Shown: in pieces, positions 47,729-56,446 of the stretch
Position numbering within the stretch: the stretch's first letter is position 1
Layout of the letters: the number at the start of each line of letters is the position of its first letter
DNA from: Streptomyces sp. TG1A-60
Lineage (GTDB): Bacteria > Actinomycetota > Actinomycetes > Streptomycetales > Streptomycetaceae
Assembly (NCBI RefSeq): GCF_037201975.1
Contig: NZ_CP147520.1
Span: forward strand, 1,550,001-1,614,000
Length of the DNA stretch: 64,000 bases
Direction of reading: 5' to 3'
Program-made: the position numbers and the translations under genes
Notes under the pieces: model-generated
What the model saw: only the letters and a program-made list of their open reading frames with translations
Database searches by the model: none
Told to the model about the DNA's origin: nothing

Positions 47729-50700
47729 CTAGATCGGGTGCGGTTCCAGGTCGAGACAGCTGAGGTTCCACTCCTGGAGGGCCAGCACACGGGGGTGCTC
47801 CCTGCCGATGCGCTTGCTGAGCGCGGCCAGCGTGTCGTTGTGCCTCTTGCGGGCCTCGTCGGCTCGGCCCAGTCGGCTCAGGACGACCGCGTGGTTGCCC
47901 ACACAGGTCAGCGCCGACGGGTGAGTGGGCTCAAGAACCTCCTTGAGCAGTTCGAAGGCCTCGAAGCTGGTCGTACGGGCTGCTTCCCACTCGCCGAGCG
48001 CCGCCTCCGCGACGGCGAGGTTCGCACGGCAGATGAGTACATAGGGATGGTGCTCGCCGTTGAGGACGCGGAACCTCTCCTGCGACTCCCGCAGTGACTC
48101 CCGTGCCTCGGCGGCCACTTCGGGACGGATGGACTCGAGGTCGCCGAGCAGCAGGACCGCGTGGTTGACCGCGCAGGCCACGGTCTGGGAGTGGCCTTCC
48201 CCCAGGCTGTCCCTGAGGTCGCCCCGGACCCTGCGGATCAGGGTCAGGGCCTCGTCGACACGGCCCTGTGCGGCCATGTCTCCGGCAAGGCTCATCTCCA
48301 GCAGCAGCCGCTCCGAGGCCGATCCCTTCTCCCCCTCGGGCGTGCTTCTCAGCACATGGCGCACCAGTTCCTCGGCCTCCGCCGCCCGGCCCGCCCGGCG
48401 CAGCGAACCGGCCAGGCCCTTGGCCGTGTTGAGCACGGTCGGCGAACCCTGGGTGAGGCGAGGATTGCGCAGACAGCGCTCGTAGGCGCGCTTCAGCAGC
48501 GTGACGGACTCCTCGTAGTCACCGCAGTCACGCAGGTCACGGCCCAGGTTCACGGCCGACTCGATCGTCAGAGGGTGATCGTGGAGCTGGATCGCCTCCC
48601 GCAGCTCCAGCGTCCTGCGGTCGAGATCGCGGGCTCTGTGGTAGTCACCGGAGAGCCTCAGGGCGACGGCGAGGTTGTTGGCCGCGCTGAGGGTGCGTGC
48701 GTGGTCCTCGCCGTAGATCTGCTCGTACCTCTGGTACGTCTCCTCGTCGTAGCGCAGAGCCTCCGTCAGCCGGCCCAGACCTCTCAGGTCGGCCGCGATG
48801 CTGCTGGTGGTCATGAGGATGTGCTGGTCGTCCACGTCGTCGAGTACGGCGAGCTGGCGCTCCAGGACTTCCTGGTCCAGGGAGAGGGACTCCTCGTATC
48901 TGCCCTGGGCGCGCAGGATGTTGGCGATCTGGAAGCGCATGTGCAGCGTCCAGCGTTCGTCCGGGGAGCCGTCCGCGGACCAGGCGGCCACCCGTCGGGA
49001 GCTGTAGTCCATGGCCTGGGCCAACTCGCCCCGGCGGCGCAGTTGGCGCACCCGGTCGACGAAGAGTTCCTTGATGCCCTCGTCGGGAGCGGTCTCGGCC
49101 CACGGTGTGCCGAGATGTGGCCAGATGATGCGGTACTTCTCCCAGGTGTTGGGGTTCTCGGGGTCGTCCCCGCTCGGCCTGGCCGCGATCAGCGAGCGGT
49201 AGACGACCTCTTGCGCCGCCTCGCGCTCCGCCTCGGTCATCTCCTCCCGCATGGCGATCTGCATCATGCGGTGCACGGTCACGCTCCGCGCCTTGCGGTC
49301 CACCGTGACCAGGGAGAACTTGCTCAGCTCCTTGTACGCGCGGGAGACGATGCGCACCCCGCCCAGCGCCCGGGAGACCTCGAAGCCCTCCAGCAGGTCC
49401 ATGGAGATCGGCTCGGGGCTGTAGTACGAGCAGATCTGCAGCAGCCTCACCGCTGCCGGGAAGTTCTCCTTCAGCTGCCCGAGGGCGAACTCCCAGGTGT
49501 TGGTGCTGGACTTGACGACCTCCCCGACCGTGTCCGCGGCCGGGGCCCCGGTGGCCTGGGGCTGGAGCTGCTTGATGTAGCTGCGGACGTCGACCCTGGT
49601 CTGCTCGATGTAGGCCGCGGCCCGTTCGATGGCGATCGGCAGGTCGCCCAGGGCGTCCGCGATCTGGTCGGCCTCCGTCCAACCGCAGTCGGGCAGACGG
49701 CTGTGCAGGTGGGTGATGCTCTCGTTCCGCTCGAACACGGGGACGTCGACGATGTCCACGAAGCGGCCCCAGCCCTCGGAACGCTGGCTGGTGATCAGGA
49801 TGTGTCCGGTCCGACCGTCCATCATGAACTCGGGGAGGTAGTCCGCCTCCGTGACGTTGTCCAGGATCAGCAGCCAACTACCGTAGGGATCACCCTGGTT
49901 GAGGGTCTCGTACACCGTCTTGGCCGTGTCGGTCGGATTCGTCCGCTCCGGCAGACCGAGCCTCTCGGCCATGCCCGCGTACTGCTCGACGGCCAGGATC
50001 TGCTGTTCGGCCTGGATGTGCCAGACGACGTCGTAGTCGCTCTTGTAGCGGTACGCGAACTCCTGGGCCAGCAGCGTCTTGCCCACCCCGCCCATGCCCT
50101 TGAGCACGAGGGCACGGGTGTCCTCCTTCCACAGCTTCTCCCGGATGCCTTCCAGGAGTTCTGTACGGCCGGTGAAGGACGAGGTGCGCAGCGGGACCGA
50201 GAAGACCGGCGGCTCGGCCCCCGGATAGCGCGGCACCCTCCGCTCGCCGCCCGTGAAGTGGCTGTGGGCCAGGGACTCCGCCGTCCTGCCGAAGCTGCTC
50301 AGCAGCGCCTCACGGCCCACCTCGCCGGTGTAGCAGCGGGTCATGTCGGCGAGCTGTTCGGTGAAGGGCGCGTCCAGCGACAGCTTCCGGTCTACCTGCA
50401 TCGAGACCAGCTGATGGGCCCGCCGGTCGCCCTCCGCGTAGACCGCCTCCCAGGTCGTGCGGAAGCGGGACGACCTGAGGTAGGCCTTGGAGAAGACGAC
50501 CAGGGTGTGCGATGCCGACTCGACGCCGCGTTCGATCTCCTCCCTCAGCAGGGTTCCCTCGGTCGTGCCCTCCTGCGCGAGGTGCACCTTGAAACCGGAC
50601 TGCTCCAGGACCGCGCCCGCCCAGTTGGCCCAGCTCCGGTCCTGCGGGACGAAACTGACGTACACGTCGGAGATGCGCGGCGGGCGGTGGCGGGTGTACC

Positions 50701-51721
50701 GGTCCAGGGTGTCGCGACGCAGCGACTCGTCCATACGGGGCATGGACTCGACCTGGCCGTCCGTGATGACCGTGGTGAGTCTTTCGTAGGCGGCGAGCAG
50801 GCTCTTGGGGTCACCGGGCTGCTCGCGGAACGGGGCGAGCGTCTCCTCGTAGGAGTAGATGGGCCGGTAGGGGATCTCCACGCTGCCCCAGTAGTCCTCC
50901 GGGTCCCGGTCGGTGATGTGCTTGCGCACGATCCGGTCGAAGCGGTACTGGATCTGCCCCCGGGCGGCGTCCAGCCGGTCCGCCTCGGCGTTCTCCACCC
51001 TCATGGGGACGGGCAGGATCCGGATGTCCCGGTTGCCGTACATCCCGTCGATGCGTTCGGCGACGCCGGCCGCGCCCTCGATGCTCTGGCTGCTCGGGGT
51101 GAAGCAGGTGACCAGCGTGTGCGGCAGATTGACGGTGCAGATGTCGGAGATGTCGTTGAGGCCGGTACGGCTGTCGATGAGGACGTAGTCGAAGTTCTCG
51201 ACGAACTCGCGCTTGAGCCCTTCCAGGAACCGGGTGGCCAGGGGGCCGTCCATGAAGGGCTTCCAGTCGAACTGCGAGAAGGCCGAGAGATAGCCCTTGT
51301 TCTTCGTGCCGGCCGGGAGGTAGTAGAGCTGGCCGCCCGCGGGGAAGTCCCAGTCGACCTGGATGAGGCAGCTGTTGAGGGAGATCCCGTCGGCAGCCCA
51401 GGAGTCGACCCCGGAAGCCGGTGCCTCGGAACCCGGTTCGATCTGACGCCCCTGCTCCATGAAGTTCGAGGTCTGGAGCATCAACTGCGTGGAACGGCTT
51501 ACCAGTTCGAGGACGCCCGGGGTGGTGCGCAGCTGACCGTCGCTCAGGAAGGGGTGCAGGAAGCGGTCCAGGCCCGGCGCGTCGAGATCCCAGTCGACCA
51601 CCAGGACGCTCTTGCCCGAGGAGGCCAGGATCCAGGCCGTGTTGGCGAGCGCCATCGTCCGCCCCGTACCGCCCTTGTACGAGTAGAACGTGATGATCCT
51701 GCCAGCATCCTCGCCGGTCAT
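47729..51721 (-). CDS. fxsT: FxsT: ParA-like / TIR / STAND-NTPase / TPR protein of the FXSXX-COOH system
   Basis: A 1330-residue multidomain protein. Residues 16-22 KGGTGRT are a deviant Walker A of a MinD/ParA-type ATPase (VLVVDWDLDAPGLDRFL follows). A TIR-like domain covers about 350-480 (ISDVYVSFVPQDRSWANWAGAVLEQSGF, SSRFRTTWEAVYAEG). An NB-ARC P-loop (LKGMGGVGKTLLAQEF) is near residue 545, with LLILDNV as Walker B. From about 900 to the end are TPR repeats with LGEGHSQT/YGEDHARTL spacing. This is the signalling arm of FXS loci. Its ATG overlaps the fxsC stop (ATGA). The role of the system is unknown. Confidence 0.92.
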   Translation of the reverse strand: MTGEDAGRIITFYSYKGGTGRTMALANTAWILASSGKSVLVVDWDLDAPGLDRFLHPFLSDGQLRTTPGVLELVSRSTQLMLQTSNFMEQGRQIEPGSEAPASGVDSWAADGISLNSCLIQVDWDFPAGGQLYYLPAGTKNKGYLSAFSQFDWKPFMDGPLATRFLEGLKREFVENFDYVLIDSRTGLNDISDICTVNLPHTLVTCFTPSSQSIEGAAGVAERIDGMYGNRDIRILPVPMRVENAEADRLDAARGQIQYRFDRIVRKHITDRDPEDYWGSVEIPYRPIYSYEETLAPFREQPGDPKSLLAAYERLTTVITDGQVESMPRMDESLRRDTLDRYTRHRPPRISDVYVSFVPQDRSWANWAGAVLEQSGFKVHLAQEGTTEGTLLREEIERGVESASHTLVVFSKAYLRSSRFRTTWEAVYAEGDRRAHQLVSMQVDRKLSLDAPFTEQLADMTRCYTGEVGREALLSSFGRTAESLAHSHFTGGERRVPRYPGAEPPVFSVPLRTSSFTGRTELLEGIREKLWKEDTRALVLKGMGGVGKTLLAQEFAYRYKSDYDVVWHIQAEQQILAVEQYAGMAERLGLPERTNPTDTAKTVYETLNQGDPYGSWLLILDNVTEADYLPEFMMDGRTGHILITSQRSEGWGRFVDIVDVPVFERNESITHLHSRLPDCGWTEADQIADALGDLPIAIERAAAYIEQTRVDVRSYIKQLQPQATGAPAADTVGEVVKSSTNTWEFALGQLKENFPAAVRLLQICSYYSPEPISMDLLEGFEVSRALGGVRIVSRAYKELSKFSLVTVDRKARSVTVHRMMQIAMREEMTEAEREAAQEVVYRSLIAARPSGDDPENPNTWEKYRIIWPHLGTPWAETAPDEGIKELFVDRVRQLRRRGELAQAMDYSSRRVAAWSADGSPDERWTLHMRFQIANILRAQGRYEESLSLDQEVLERQLAVLDDVDDQHILMTTSSIAADLRGLGRLTEALRYDEETYQRYEQIYGEDHARTLSAANNLAVALRLSGDYHRARDLDRRTLELREAIQLHDHPLTIESAVNLGRDLRDCGDYEESVTLLKRAYERCLRNPRLTQGSPTVLNTAKGLAGSLRRAGRAAEAEELVRHVLRSTPEGEKGSASERLLLEMSLAGDMAAQGRVDEALTLIRRVRGDLRDSLGEGHSQTVACAVNHAVLLLGDLESIRPEVAAEARESLRESQERFRVLNGEHHPYVLICRANLAVAEAALGEWEAARTTSFEAFELLKEVLEPTHPSALTCVGNHAVVLSRLGRADEARKRHNDTLAALSKRIGREHPRVLALQEWNLSCLDLEPHPI

Positions 51722-53057
51722 GGCCTGCCCTCCACGCGACGTCCGTCGCTCGATGCCCCGTCGTCCCGTCCGGCGACGGGCCGCCCGGGCAGGTCCGCAC
51801 CGGATTCCGGAACATCCCGGGCGCCTGTCCCGCTCCGGGACAATTGCGAATGAATGTACCGCAGATAGCGAATCTTGGTTGCCTCGGCCAGCTCACCGAA
51901 CCAGCGGGTGAAGACATCCGCCCCGGCGAGACCACGGACCGCTTCCTGTTCCCCGGCCCGGCCCTCGCTGAGGAAGCGCGGAAAGTTCGCCGCCAGCAGC
52001 CCACGCAGCCGATCGGACTGCTCCTTGGTCTGCAGATCGTCGCCCGCCAGGGTACTCAGCACCGCCGTCCACGGACGCCGGGCCCTGTCGAACTCCCGTG
52101 CCTGGCTTGCCATTCGGGGATTCTCCAGCGCCCAGGGGTCCACCACCAGGATCCAGGGGGCCGTCGGGATCTCCGTGCTCCTCAGCTCCGCCTGCGTCTT
52201 GTGAAAGGGCAGCACGGTGGGCTCGAAGCCGAGATTGCGGGCCAGGGCCTCCATCTGTTCGACCAGGGGACCCACTGCCTGCCCGTAGGGCCGCCAGTCG
52301 TCGACACGTGGTCCGTAGCGTGTGTTGTCCCGGCCTACCGGTAACTGTTCCTCGGTCGGGGCGAGCACCGTGATGTGCAGCGGGGAGGCGAAGGGAGGGT
52401 CGGCGAAGGCGTCGTCCAGCCCGGCCAGCGTCACCGGCTCGGGCACCCTCCCCCGCCGGCGGGCGTCCGCGGCTGCCCGGGCACCGTGGCCGCCTGGTCG
52501 ACGATGCGCTGGGCGAGCCAGTCGGTCACCTGGGCGACCTGGGAGGCGACCTGGGCCGCCGCGTGCTCGTCCTCCGGGTCCGGCCGTTCGGTCAGGTCGA
52601 GCAGCTGGTCCAGCAGCCGGTGCAGCCCCACGGAGGCGTAGTTCTCGGCTGCCTCGCCCATCCCTTCCGGCACCTCGGGGTACTGCTCCTTTACCCTCTT
52701 GGGCAGCGACGTGGGCGAGTACGGGGTCCACAGCACCGGGACGATGCTCGGCCTTGCGCCCTGAGCGGCCCCCTGGGTGACGGCGGTCCACTGGCGCCCG
52801 CACTGCGGGTTGCTGAAGTACCTTTTCGAGTACAGCGGAACGAAGACCTGGCAGTCCAGAAGCGCCTTGATCGACCTTTCCCCGGGGGCACCGGGCCGCT
52901 CGACGTAACCCGCCTCCTCCCGTGACACTCGCGCGTGCCGCGCCACTTTCGCGCACAGTTCGTCGAAGAACTGGAAAACCAGACGATTGGGGTCCTGCGA
53001 AATGTCCCGGTGTCGGGGAGCAGGGACCCGCGCATAGCTCATGAAGAACATCGGCAT
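51718..53057 (-). CDS. fxsC: FxsC: TIR-like protein of the FXSXX-COOH system, frameshifted
   Basis: The N-terminal TIR-like domain (MPMFFMSYARVPAPRHRDIS, KALLDCQVFVPLYSKRYFSN) ends around residue 195. The frame then closes in a Gly/Pro tail near 52431. One frame over, RVPEPVTLAGLDDAFADPPF then HITVLAPTEEQLPVGR continues the conserved FxsC C-terminal domain to 51718. The shift lies near 52480-52490 (TGCCCGGGCAG). The usual CGREW of TIR helix reads CGRQW, so the Glu of NADase TIRs is Gln. If the shift is real, only a TIR fragment is made. Confidence 0.85.
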
Positions 53058-53061
53058 CCCG

Positions 53062-53718
53062 CTATTCCCCCTCGAAGACGTTCCGGAGGTCTTTGAACAG
53101 CTCCACGTCGCACGGTTCAAGCCTGGTCTGCTGAGCCACGTTGACGATCATCTGGGCGAGTTCCCACACGATGCTGCGGTACTTGGCGTGGCGGCCCGCC
53201 TGCTTCAGTCCGTAGAGACCGGACTGCAGGTAGTCCTTACCCAGATCGGGGTGGGCGTACTGCACCTTCGCCGCCACGGGCGGCAGTGTCAGATGCTGTG
53301 TCCCCACCCAGAGGACGGGGATGATCGCGTTACCCGTGTACGGCCGGGTACGGAGCTGTTCCTCCTGACGCCGCGCGAAGGCGTCCCATTCCCTTCCGCA
53401 CCATTCCCGCCTGAAGTACCGGCTGTTGTAGATAGGTACGAAGACCCGGCAGGTGGCCAGGGCCTGTTTGAGTCTGTTCTCCCAGTCGGCGCCGACCCCC
53501 ATGCGCTGGTCGAGGAATCCGGGCGATTCCTCTCCGTCGTGGTCGGTCAGCTGCATGATGGCGCTGCATAACTGGCCGTGGAACTGCTCCAGCGCCACAT
53601 CCGACTGGTCTTTCCTCGGCCGTTCCCCCGTCATAGGGGTCCGGGCATAGCTCATGAAGAACACATACGGATCGGAGGAAACCGTCGACCGGGTCGCCTC
53701 AGAAGCCGGATGAATCAT
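53062..53718 (-). CDS. Second TIR-like protein of the FXS locus
   Basis: A 218-residue TIR-like protein resembling the FxsC N-terminal domain: PYVFFMSYARTP, RLKQALATCRVFVPIYNSRYFRREWCGREWDAF, IPVLWVG. It keeps the REWCGRE glutamate lost in FxsC. It lacks the FxsC C-terminal domain and instead ends in a short helical tail (LFKDLRNVFEGE). Four bases separate its stop from the fxsC start. A duplicated TIR partner may indicate a two-subunit effector. Confidence 0.87.
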   Translation of the reverse strand: MIHPASEATRSTVSSDPYVFFMSYARTPMTGERPRKDQSDVALEQFHGQLCSAIMQLTDHDGEESPGFLDQRMGVGADWENRLKQALATCRVFVPIYNSRYFRREWCGREWDAFARRQEEQLRTRPYTGNAIIPVLWVGTQHLTLPPVAAKVQYAHPDLGKDYLQSGLYGLKQAGRHAKYRSIVWELAQMIVNVAQQTRLEPCDVELFKDLRNVFEGE

Positions 53719-53887
53719 GGACTCGCCTTTCCCCTCCCCCGTCGCCCACCTCGGGTCTCCCAGCCCCGAGCATCACAGCCGGATCTCGTCCGGGATCCAT
53801 TGGAACGCGAAAACCACCGCGGGTGCCAGGGGTCGGCCGGAGCAAGTTGTACCGGACACCGGTGCGCTGAACGTGAGTTGTCCGCCA

Positions 53888-56257
53888 TCACACCGCGACG
53901 GGACCGGTTTCGGCCACTCCGCCCAGGGCTTCGACCTCGCCCCGGAGGCCTCGGACGAAGCGGTGGCCCAGGGCGGTCAGGGAGCCGGTTCCGGCCACGG
54001 TGTCGAGGGCGTCCAGCACCGCCGTACGCCATTTGTCCGCCTCGACGCGGGAGCGTTCGTGCAGGGCGGCGCCGACGGCCGTACCGCGGCGGGCCCTGAT
54101 CCGCCAGACGTCGGCGACCGCGAGATGGGCGTACGCGCCCTGGACGATGGCGTCGAGCGGCCTGGGGTCGGGTCGCCACAGCACCTGGTGGCGGCCTTCG
54201 TCGAGGCCGTCGAGCAGGTCGAACATGTCGAGCATCGCGCCCAGTTTGACGTGCTGGTACTCGTGGATGAGCAGCAGGGCCAGGTCCTCGGCCGTGCGGG
54301 GCAGCGCGATGCCGACCGCCCCGAAGGCGTGCCGGGAGGTGGCGCTGACGTCGTGGCCGGAGCGTGCGGGCGCGAGCGGGGTCACCGTGGTGAGCCCGGC
54401 GGCGATGCCCTGCGCGTAGTCCGGGTACTCGGTCCGGATCAGCCGCCATGCCTCCTTGAACATCGCCTCCCAGCGTCGGAATCCGGCCTCGGAGAGCCGG
54501 GAAAGCGGACGGTACCGGTAGCAGTCACGGGAGGGGTCCACGTCGTCCAGGGCGACCGCCGGGCCGTCCGCGGACAGGTGCCGCAGCGGCTGCCAGACCA
54601 TGCCGGCGGGCGGGCGGTCCCGGCCCAGGGTCCGTCCTTCGACGGTGATCGCGGCGTCGGTGGCCGTCACGGTGACGGTGCCCGGCCGCCGGTCGCGGCT
54701 GCCGGCGCGCACCAGCAGCCGTCCGATGCCGGGCAGATGGATGGCCGAGCCGTCGGGGCCGTGCCGCAGCGGGACGGGCAGGGTCAGCTGTCCGCCGGTG
54801 CGGGCGACGGCCGACAGGGCGGCCTCGGCCGGGTGGCCCTCGGCCCGCCGTACCGACTGCCCGCAGGCGAGCGCCCACACGCGTAGATAGGGGTCGGCCA
54901 GCAGCGTGTCCAGGGCGACGGCGGGCAGCGCGAGGACCGCTTCCCAGCCGGGCGCCGAGTCCGCCGAGCCGTGAGGGCCGGGGGTCTCCGCGCGGCGGGC
55001 GGCGGCCAGCAACGCCCGTCGCTGGCTGTTCTGGGCCGCGGCGAGCGACCGGACGGCCGCCGTGCTGCCGTGTCCGGTGGCCAGTTCGTCGAAGTGGAGC
55101 CAGGACAGGCCGTGCCAGCCGTGGCGGACGTCGGCGTCGTCGCGCTCGGTGGTCTGGACGTGTTGGATGATCTTCAGCAGGTCGGCGCAGTAGACGGAGG
55201 GGTTGTCGAAGCCGTTGGACGTGCGGTGACGGTGTCCGTAGAGGCCGCCGCCGCAGACCGATACGACCGGGCAGGCGCGGCACTGCGCGCTCAGGCCGTC
55301 CAGTCCGGCGCGGCGGGCCTGGATGCCCCGGTGCGCGGCGGCCTCCTCCAGACGGTGGGTGGCGATGTGCATGCCGGTCCCCGGGGCGCCCGGATAGGCC
55401 GTCTTCAGCCAGTCCGCCTGTTCGACGGCGCCGTCGGTCTCCACCACCAGCAGGTCCGAACTGCCCAGTCCCAGCGCCTCGGTGAGGCTGCCGCGGCCAC
55501 GGGACAACCGGCTGATCGACTCGAACATGCGGATCCGCGTCGGCATGCCGTCGGCGGTCCACTGCTTGTGCACGGCGATCAGCCAGTCGGCGTAGTCGGA
55601 GCCGCTCTCGCCGCCGGGGCGGGGCGGCGGGTACTCCCAGGTGGCGTGCGGCAGCAGGAAGTCGATGGCGGGCGGGCGCAGTCGGGCGAGCGCCCGGTAC
55701 ACCTCCACCGGGTCGTTCTCGACGTCGATCGTGCAGAGCAGTCCGCCGAACGCGCTCCGGTGGGCGGGGGCACCCAGTCGGCGCACCGCGCGAACCACGT
55801 CCCGGTAGGAGCCCGAGCCGTCCCGCCTGATCCGGTGGCGGTCGTTGGACGCCTCGTCGCCGTCGAGCGAGATGCTGGTGACGATGGACTCCTCGACGAG
55901 CATCGCGCAGAACGCGTCGTCCAGCCGGAGACCGTTGGTCTGCATCCGCAGGTCGAGTTCGGCCACGCCGTCCAGGGCGGAGCGCAGCGCGCGGGCGAAG
56001 CCGCGCAACTGTTCCCGTCCGGCGAGCAGGGGCTCGCCGCCGTGCAGCACGACATGGACGCGGGCGAGCCGGTGCGCGGTGGCGTGTTCGGCGATCCGGG
56101 CCGCCGTACGACGAAACGTCCGCTCGGACATCGTCACCGGACGTCCGCGCCAGCTCTGGTCGGCGTGCTGGTAGACGTAGCAGTGGTCACAGGCCAGATC
56201 GCAACGGCTGTGCACCTTGATCACGAACTGGCGGAAGGGCCGCGCCGCCGCGGTCAC
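53888..56257 (-). CDS. fxsB: FxsB: radical SAM/SPASM peptide cyclase fused to an HExxH domain
   Basis: A 789-residue fusion. The radical SAM cluster is C19-D-L-A-C23-D-H-C26 (CxxxCxxC), followed by HGGEPLL and a SPASM region with CRACPVVSVCGGGLYGHR and a later Cys in SVYCADLL. FxsB-type enzymes join an aromatic residue to another side chain, making cyclophanes. The C-terminal half (about 430-789) carries HEYQH at 665-669 and matches the HExxH modification domain of some RiPP loci, members of which are thought to be oxygenases. GTG start with GGGGGA. It lies 34 bases after fxsA. Confidence 0.93.
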   Translation of the reverse strand: MTAAARPFRQFVIKVHSRCDLACDHCYVYQHADQSWRGRPVTMSERTFRRTAARIAEHATAHRLARVHVVLHGGEPLLAGREQLRGFARALRSALDGVAELDLRMQTNGLRLDDAFCAMLVEESIVTSISLDGDEASNDRHRIRRDGSGSYRDVVRAVRRLGAPAHRSAFGGLLCTIDVENDPVEVYRALARLRPPAIDFLLPHATWEYPPPRPGGESGSDYADWLIAVHKQWTADGMPTRIRMFESISRLSRGRGSLTEALGLGSSDLLVVETDGAVEQADWLKTAYPGAPGTGMHIATHRLEEAAAHRGIQARRAGLDGLSAQCRACPVVSVCGGGLYGHRHRTSNGFDNPSVYCADLLKIIQHVQTTERDDADVRHGWHGLSWLHFDELATGHGSTAAVRSLAAAQNSQRRALLAAARRAETPGPHGSADSAPGWEAVLALPAVALDTLLADPYLRVWALACGQSVRRAEGHPAEAALSAVARTGGQLTLPVPLRHGPDGSAIHLPGIGRLLVRAGSRDRRPGTVTVTATDAAITVEGRTLGRDRPPAGMVWQPLRHLSADGPAVALDDVDPSRDCYRYRPLSRLSEAGFRRWEAMFKEAWRLIRTEYPDYAQGIAAGLTTVTPLAPARSGHDVSATSRHAFGAVGIALPRTAEDLALLLIHEYQHVKLGAMLDMFDLLDGLDEGRHQVLWRPDPRPLDAIVQGAYAHLAVADVWRIRARRGTAVGAALHERSRVEADKWRTAVLDALDTVAGTGSLTALGHRFVRGLRGEVEALGGVAETGPVAV

Positions 56258-56290
56258 CGGGACGATCCCCCGTCGTTGCGGTCGGCCCGG

Positions 56291-56446
56291 TCAGAGCGAC
56301 GACTGGAAGGCGGCCACCGGCTCTCCGCCACCCGCGAGCATCCTTGCCAGAGCCGACTCCTGCGCGGACTCCGGTACCTCGTCCAGCGAGGTGTCGTGCA
56401 AGTCCCTGACGACGCTCGTGGCGAAGGGCTGCTCGTACCTGTCCAT
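56291..56446 (-). CDS. fxsA: FxsA: FXSXX-COOH precursor peptide
   Basis: A 51-residue peptide, [20 protein letters not shown] at the start and [13 protein letters not shown] at the end. The C-terminal F-Q-S-S-L is the defining FxSxx-COOH signature. Acidic/hydrophobic leader-like residues 1-36 precede a Gly-rich hinge (LAGGGEP). A strong site (GAGGAGACGCCT-ATG) supports this start. F47 and S49 are the natural substrates for the FxsB cyclophane reaction (inference from the family). Because the upstream ABC ATPase frame is shifted, its open frame runs without a stop into fxsA. Confidence 0.93.

Follow-up and report, generated by a model that had tools for sequence, protein, structure and literature searches.

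The FXS system, in which the genes of a ribosomally synthesised and post-translationally modified peptide (RiPP) stand beside TIR proteins and a signal transduction ATPase with numerous domains (STAND NTPase), is represented in NCBIfam by the models TIGR04268, TIGR04269, TIGR04276, NF040586, and NF040588. Kaur et al. 2020 (PMC7159879), in the part devoted to the stand-alone peptide-processing systems of Actinobacteria, describes a radical SAM/SPASM enzyme and an FxSxx peptide together with an AP-ATPase bearing TPRs and an inactive MinD/ParA-like domain, and proposes the peptide as a toxin or as a signal that amplifies conflict systems; a second TIR gene and the states of the TIR glutamate have no place in that part of the account. 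Here we analyse such a system in a stretch of 64,000 nucleotides from Streptomyces sp. TG1A-60 (contig NZ_CP147520.1), called the window in its whole length, where the FXS block occupies 47729..56446 with all genes on the minus strand. The enzyme and the peptide are as in the published systems, and the TPR protein FxsT is like their AP-ATPase. The precursor, the maturase, both halves of FxsC, and the TPR protein all exceed their NCBIfam cut-offs. Three claims of an earlier note made from the letters of this DNA are borne out: the run of same-strand FXS genes, the coupling of a RiPP pair to TIR proteins and a STAND NTPase in a block that holds no exporter, and the membership of these genes in known families. 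The window differs from the described system in that it adds a stand-alone FxsC-type TIR, its FxsC is frame-broken, and the TIR of FxsC carries glutamine instead of glutamate.

The FXS system and the idea of a role in conflict or signalling are already in print (NCBIfam; PMC7159879). What is new here is the assignment of the extra TIR, by its sequence, as an FxsC-type duplicate, and the confinement of the catalytic-type glutamate to it in Streptomycetaceae. A literature search, limited to open-licence papers and for the most part to their titles and abstracts, turned up no mention of an additional TIR gene or of glutamate states in FXS loci; in PMC12734244, FxSxx-COOH serves only to label a gene, in a fungal table. 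A likeness exists in plants, where the passage of PMC7282519 on the paired TIR receptors (nucleotide-binding leucine-rich repeat proteins) RPS4/RRS1 describes pairs in which one TIR bears the glutamate and the other does not. The TIRs studied here are instead encoded by separate genes beside a RiPP, and the parallel would be no more than an analogy.

Catalytic-type glutamate in one-TIR and two-TIR loci

The stand-alone TIR (53062..53718) and the TIR half of FxsC (52431..53057) both match NF040588, with 216.5 and 180.9 bits, and on this match the extra gene is an FxsC-type duplicate, paralogous to the FxsC N-terminus. It aligns with the TIR of flax L6 across W-C-x-x-E (phmmer E 0.013; profile E 3e-6), the aligned flax residue being what we take to be the catalytic glutamate. 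Among the TIRs of the window, only the stand-alone protein has the catalytic-type residue (Glu110), which is replaced by Gln89 in FxsC and by Thr423 at the expected place in FxsT; across 44 FxsT rows, the corresponding column holds a glutamate once, in a poorly aligned stretch. The relevant passages of PMC7282519 state that NADase function needs this glutamate in all prokaryotic TIRs examined, and those of PMC10022894 that ThsB is inactivated by E85Q. The earlier note's reading of NAD-type effector domains is not supported for every TIR.

We compared 149 loci: the window, the second FXS locus of the same genome (L008), 47 from genome contigs, and 100 fetched around matches to the FxsC C-terminal domain. 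A separate TIR gene precedes FxsC in 37 of them, 106 have one TIR gene, five have none, and L098, where a frame break had been scored as a second TIR, was excluded from the two-TIR set. FxsC is missing from L019, L022, L025, L048, and L051, and FxsB is absent from the stretch in 11 of the 106 one-TIR loci. The stand-alone TIR has the glutamate in all 37 two-TIR loci. The FxsC TIR has it in 104/106 one-TIR loci (102/104 without L130 and L133, which duplicate L047 and L049), the two exceptions being divergent loci from Actinoplanes whose alignment is gapped, which accounts for the aspartate states of L032 and L037. By contrast, the FxsC TIR of the two-TIR Streptomycetaceae has it in none of 18 loci (glutamine in 16, histidine in two). 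Eight further stretches were taken from the best matches listed; leaving aside L162, L163, and L166, which are not counted as new, they add five two-TIR loci (L160, L161, L164, L165, L167) with a stand-alone glutamate in 5/5 and an FxsC glutamine in four and histidine in one. In the two-TIR loci of Streptomycetaceae, then, FxsC lacks the catalytic-type glutamate and the stand-alone TIR alone carries it.

An FxsT tree (FastTree) of 87 rows, comprising the 37 two-TIR loci and every second one-TIR locus with long branches flagged, places the 18 Streptomycetaceae two-TIR loci in one fully supported group. Since they group together, the loss of the FxsC glutamate in this family is one event on this tree, followed by change between glutamine and histidine. 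In the TIR tree, the stand-alone and the FxsC TIRs of each family group separately, with a support of 80 at the deep fork joining them, which is in keeping with an old duplication.

We compared the window with ten relatives by a simple counting method and found ratios of nonsynonymous to synonymous substitution rates (dN/dS) of 0.14-0.49 for the FxsC TIR (0.14-0.26 against the eight nearer relatives), 0.09-0.33 for the C-terminal half of FxsC, 0.20-0.49 for the stand-alone TIR, 0.16-0.35 for FxsT, and 0.23-0.45 for FxsB. The strongest constraint of the set is on FxsA (0-0.19 against nine nearer relatives; 0.40 against L017), and a neighbouring ATP-binding cassette (ABC) permease gave 0.14-0.18. 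All parts of the cassette are under purifying selection, and because dN/dS stays low, the FxsC TIR that lacks the glutamate is being maintained and does not drift freely.

Peptide, maturase, and FxsT

The precursor FxsA (56291..56446), directly before fxsB, has 51 amino acids, ends in AAFQSSL, and scores 43.6 bits against TIGR04268 (cut-off 28). Its tail, FQSSL, is the one read by the earlier note, whose accounts of the domains of FxsB and FxsT also proved right. An exact F-x-S-x-x end was found in 117 of the 131 loci with a clear FxsB, an end one residue longer in four, and none in ten. FxsB (53888..56257) matches TIGR04269 with 578 bits (cut-off 370) and TIGR04267 with 160 bits, and joins a radical SAM/SPASM maturase to a hydroxylase-type HExxH domain of the alpha-ketoglutarate (aKG)-dependent kind, with an intact HEYQH motif at residue 665. 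Among solved relatives, residues 10-369 match 9gm3 (the radical SAM domain of ChlB) and residues 386-777 match 22nu, so that both domains resemble those of the ChlB-type fused radical SAM/aKG-HExxH enzymes. The precursor core of the latter differs from that of FxsA, and FxsB may or may not hydroxylate FxsA. PMC7159879, in its part on these systems, reads the HExxH domain as a peptidase, whereas the pertinent section of PMC12636437 reports aKG-dependent hydroxylation by this domain in a relative of FxsB. The HExxH motif is present in 34/37 two-TIR loci versus 23/101 other loci with FxsB, an association biased by sampling because L010-L056 were fetched using the window's own HExxH-bearing FxsB. 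On a Nocardia plasmid (NZ_CP108384.1, L158:8914-12655), FxsB and the HExxH domain have a gene each, and a GNAT acetyltransferase comes next.

FxsT (47729..51721) scores 828 bits against NF040586 (cut-off 300) and combines a ParA-like part, with the motif KGGTGR and a match to the NCBIfam KGGVGR-type AAA model, with the Pfam domains TIR_2, NB-ARC, and TPR. The Walker A motif of NB-ARC is intact in the window and kept in all 44 FxsT rows compared, and the best solved match to the TPRs is kinesin light chain. The C-terminal half of FxsC (51718..52434), in another frame than the TIR half, lies in an open frame that scores 229 bits against TIGR04276; we rejected it as a hidden second TIR, as the profile comparison gave a probability of 0.1-0.2%. 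Names of window genes that lack a Pfam basis rest on the appearance of their sequence.

A candidate peptide-linked alarm and its alternatives

Our preferred reading, held tentatively and with slightly less than an even chance of being right, is an alarm inside the cell that links a STAND NTPase and TIRs to a modified peptide, in which one TIR is the executor and the others are its non-catalytic partners. What we observed is the gene content, the states of the motifs, the shift of the glutamate, and selection; the biochemical steps are all ones that we infer. By analogy with characterised relatives, FxsB would form a cyclophane at F-x-S in the tail of FxsA and would probably add a beta-hydroxyl. 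The mature peptide would remain in the cell, where its free FxSxx C-terminus would most likely be read by the TPR region of FxsT, a guess prompted by the fixed distance between the motif and the C-terminus. A change in the peptide or a foreign trigger might then let the STAND NTPase of FxsT form oligomers that bring TIR domains together. As catalytic executor, the stand-alone TIR would cleave nicotinamide adenine dinucleotide (NAD+) or make a signal of the cyclic ADP-ribose type, and the TIRs of FxsC (with glutamine) and FxsT (without glutamate) would have no catalytic part but would seed the assembly or regulate it. A bolder version, possible but in our view doubtful, is that two-TIR FXS loci are bacterial paired TIR receptors: in Streptomycetaceae, catalysis would have moved to the stand-alone copy after duplication, FxsC (glutamine or histidine) and FxsT would supply the sensor or seeding TIRs, and a cyclophane RiPP read at its C-terminus by the TPRs of FxsT would act as the internal ligand by which the alarm is kept in check or released. 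If true, this would provide a bacterial counterpart of the executor and sensor TIR pairs of plants and a case in which a ribosomal peptide acts within the cell as a ligand of immunity or development.

Several observations weigh against such an alarm. PADLOC gives no match for the TIR or FxsC pieces of the window, its partial matches being FxsT to PDC-M28B (residues 9-57, 74 bits, with weaker TIR models) and FxsB to pVip (29.7 bits). The alignment between the TIRs of FxsT and of the stand-alone protein is weak (probability 0.6% in profile comparison), so that the assignment in FxsT rests on TIR_2 and the motif context. The 18 (+5) loci with glutamine or histidine are not independent, because the change is a single event on the tree. 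All 19 two-TIR loci of Micromonosporaceae keep the glutamate in both TIRs, with neighbouring FxsC residues changed, and a non-catalytic FxsC is therefore not a general rule. Finally, the FxsC of the window is frame-broken between its TIR half and its C-terminal half.

This break could mean that the system is dead or decaying in this strain, all the more so as the genome's other FXS locus is broken too, in FxsT. We consider decay very unlikely. Both breaks fall in homopolymer-rich stretches, which are common places for sequencing errors, and that of L008 lies at a homopolymer itself; the FxsC gene is in a single frame in 8/9 relatives compared (L021 is broken further on), and the break in the window may be a sequencing error. 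The two halves overlap at a GTGA stop/start within a G-rich variable linker: the GTG of the C-terminal half shares bases with the stop codon that ends the TIR half and is preceded, at a distance of 11 bases, by GGAGGG, so that the halves might still be produced as two proteins. Both remain constrained. Upstream of the locus, six genes align to relatives as single stretches. The window nevertheless splits the TIR and the C-terminal domain of FxsC between two frames, and the "complete" system announced by the earlier note is not complete in this sense, nor in having the AAC(3)-type gene found in many other loci.

Two further explanations concern the role of an intact system. In one, FxsA would give rise to a secreted signal or antibiotic, with FxsT, FxsC, and the TIR as a sensing or regulatory module, and with export and leader removal encoded elsewhere. 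Enzymes of the FxsB type do belong to cyclophane RiPP pathways, and some HExxH enzymes cleave peptide backbones (section on these enzymes in PMC12636437). The FXS block itself has no exporter, protease, or immunity gene, as the earlier note had said, although no search for exporters or proteases was made in the host beyond it. The adjoining ABC genes are importer-like and have no match in the flanks of L017, L018, L024, and L054, among 14 two-TIR loci checked. These points, together with the little variation in FxsA-like tails, make a secreted product unlikely. The other explanation is a developmental or metabolic regulator, in which the STAND protein and the TIRs would signal via the peptide in normal growth and the TIR would be a scaffold, not an NADase. 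The purifying selection on all parts suits such a regulator, as does the single chromosomal place shared by nine related loci, unlike that of a mobile defence island. We regard it as rather improbable given the patchy presence of the system, with FxsC C-terminal matches over the family cut-off in 93/246 Streptomyces genomes (and in 26/296 genomes of the class draw, Streptomyces included), and the retention of the glutamate by every stand-alone TIR of the 37 loci. The preferred alarm also finds some accord in a Streptomyces plasmid (NZ_CP109474.1, L157:3554-11218), where FxsC is fused, as C-terminal part, to a SAV_2336/TPR protein that adjoins a caspase-VMAP protein, an AAA ATPase, and an integrase; FxsA and FxsB are not among the annotated genes viewed there. 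An intracellular effector role of FxsC would fit this VMAP-type cassette, since no peptide genes are in view. In L164, TIR, FxsC, and FxsT occur without FxsB beside them (only this neighbourhood was checked for it), and the TIR/STAND part can thus occur without peptide genes beside it.

Neighbouring genes and other genomic contexts

In 63/149 loci, an AAC(3)-type acyltransferase gene (PF02522) separates FxsB from the first TIR, and five more loci carry it at another place in the stretch. It is absent from the window and from its near relatives L010-L018, L020, L021, L041, L088, and L090, and we rejected it as a core part on this ground. One example is L024:12125-12982, possibly a further peptide-modifying enzyme.

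The scanned neighbours of the block include a kinase, an alpha/beta hydrolase, a thiamine pyrophosphate enzyme, a GntR protein, a GFO/IDH oxidoreductase, and the adjoining ABC genes, whose domains (ABC ATPase, BPD_transp_2, Peripla_BP_4) point to an importer. The same ABC flank occurs at 9/14 two-TIR loci checked, L041 showing the other side only. Carriage by phages or plasmids was considered and rejected: 15 phage records match FxsB, none over 80% of it; 108 plasmid records match FxsB, none with 80% coverage in one place; and the five that match the TIR are all below 60% identity. An FxsC-like protein with a glutamate in its TIR motif is encoded on a plasmid of the alphaproteobacterium Rhizobium beringeri (NZ_CP140877.1, L159:7959-9240).

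The genome of strain TG1A-60 is a single contig of 7.83 Mb, and its second FXS locus, L008 (5750978-5759670), has one TIR gene, an AAC(3)-like gene, and an FxsB without HExxH at the aligned place. Several more matches to the FxSxx_TPR model lie in the roughly 60 kb around it (5708977-5766757), as if STAND/TPR genes clustered in this region.

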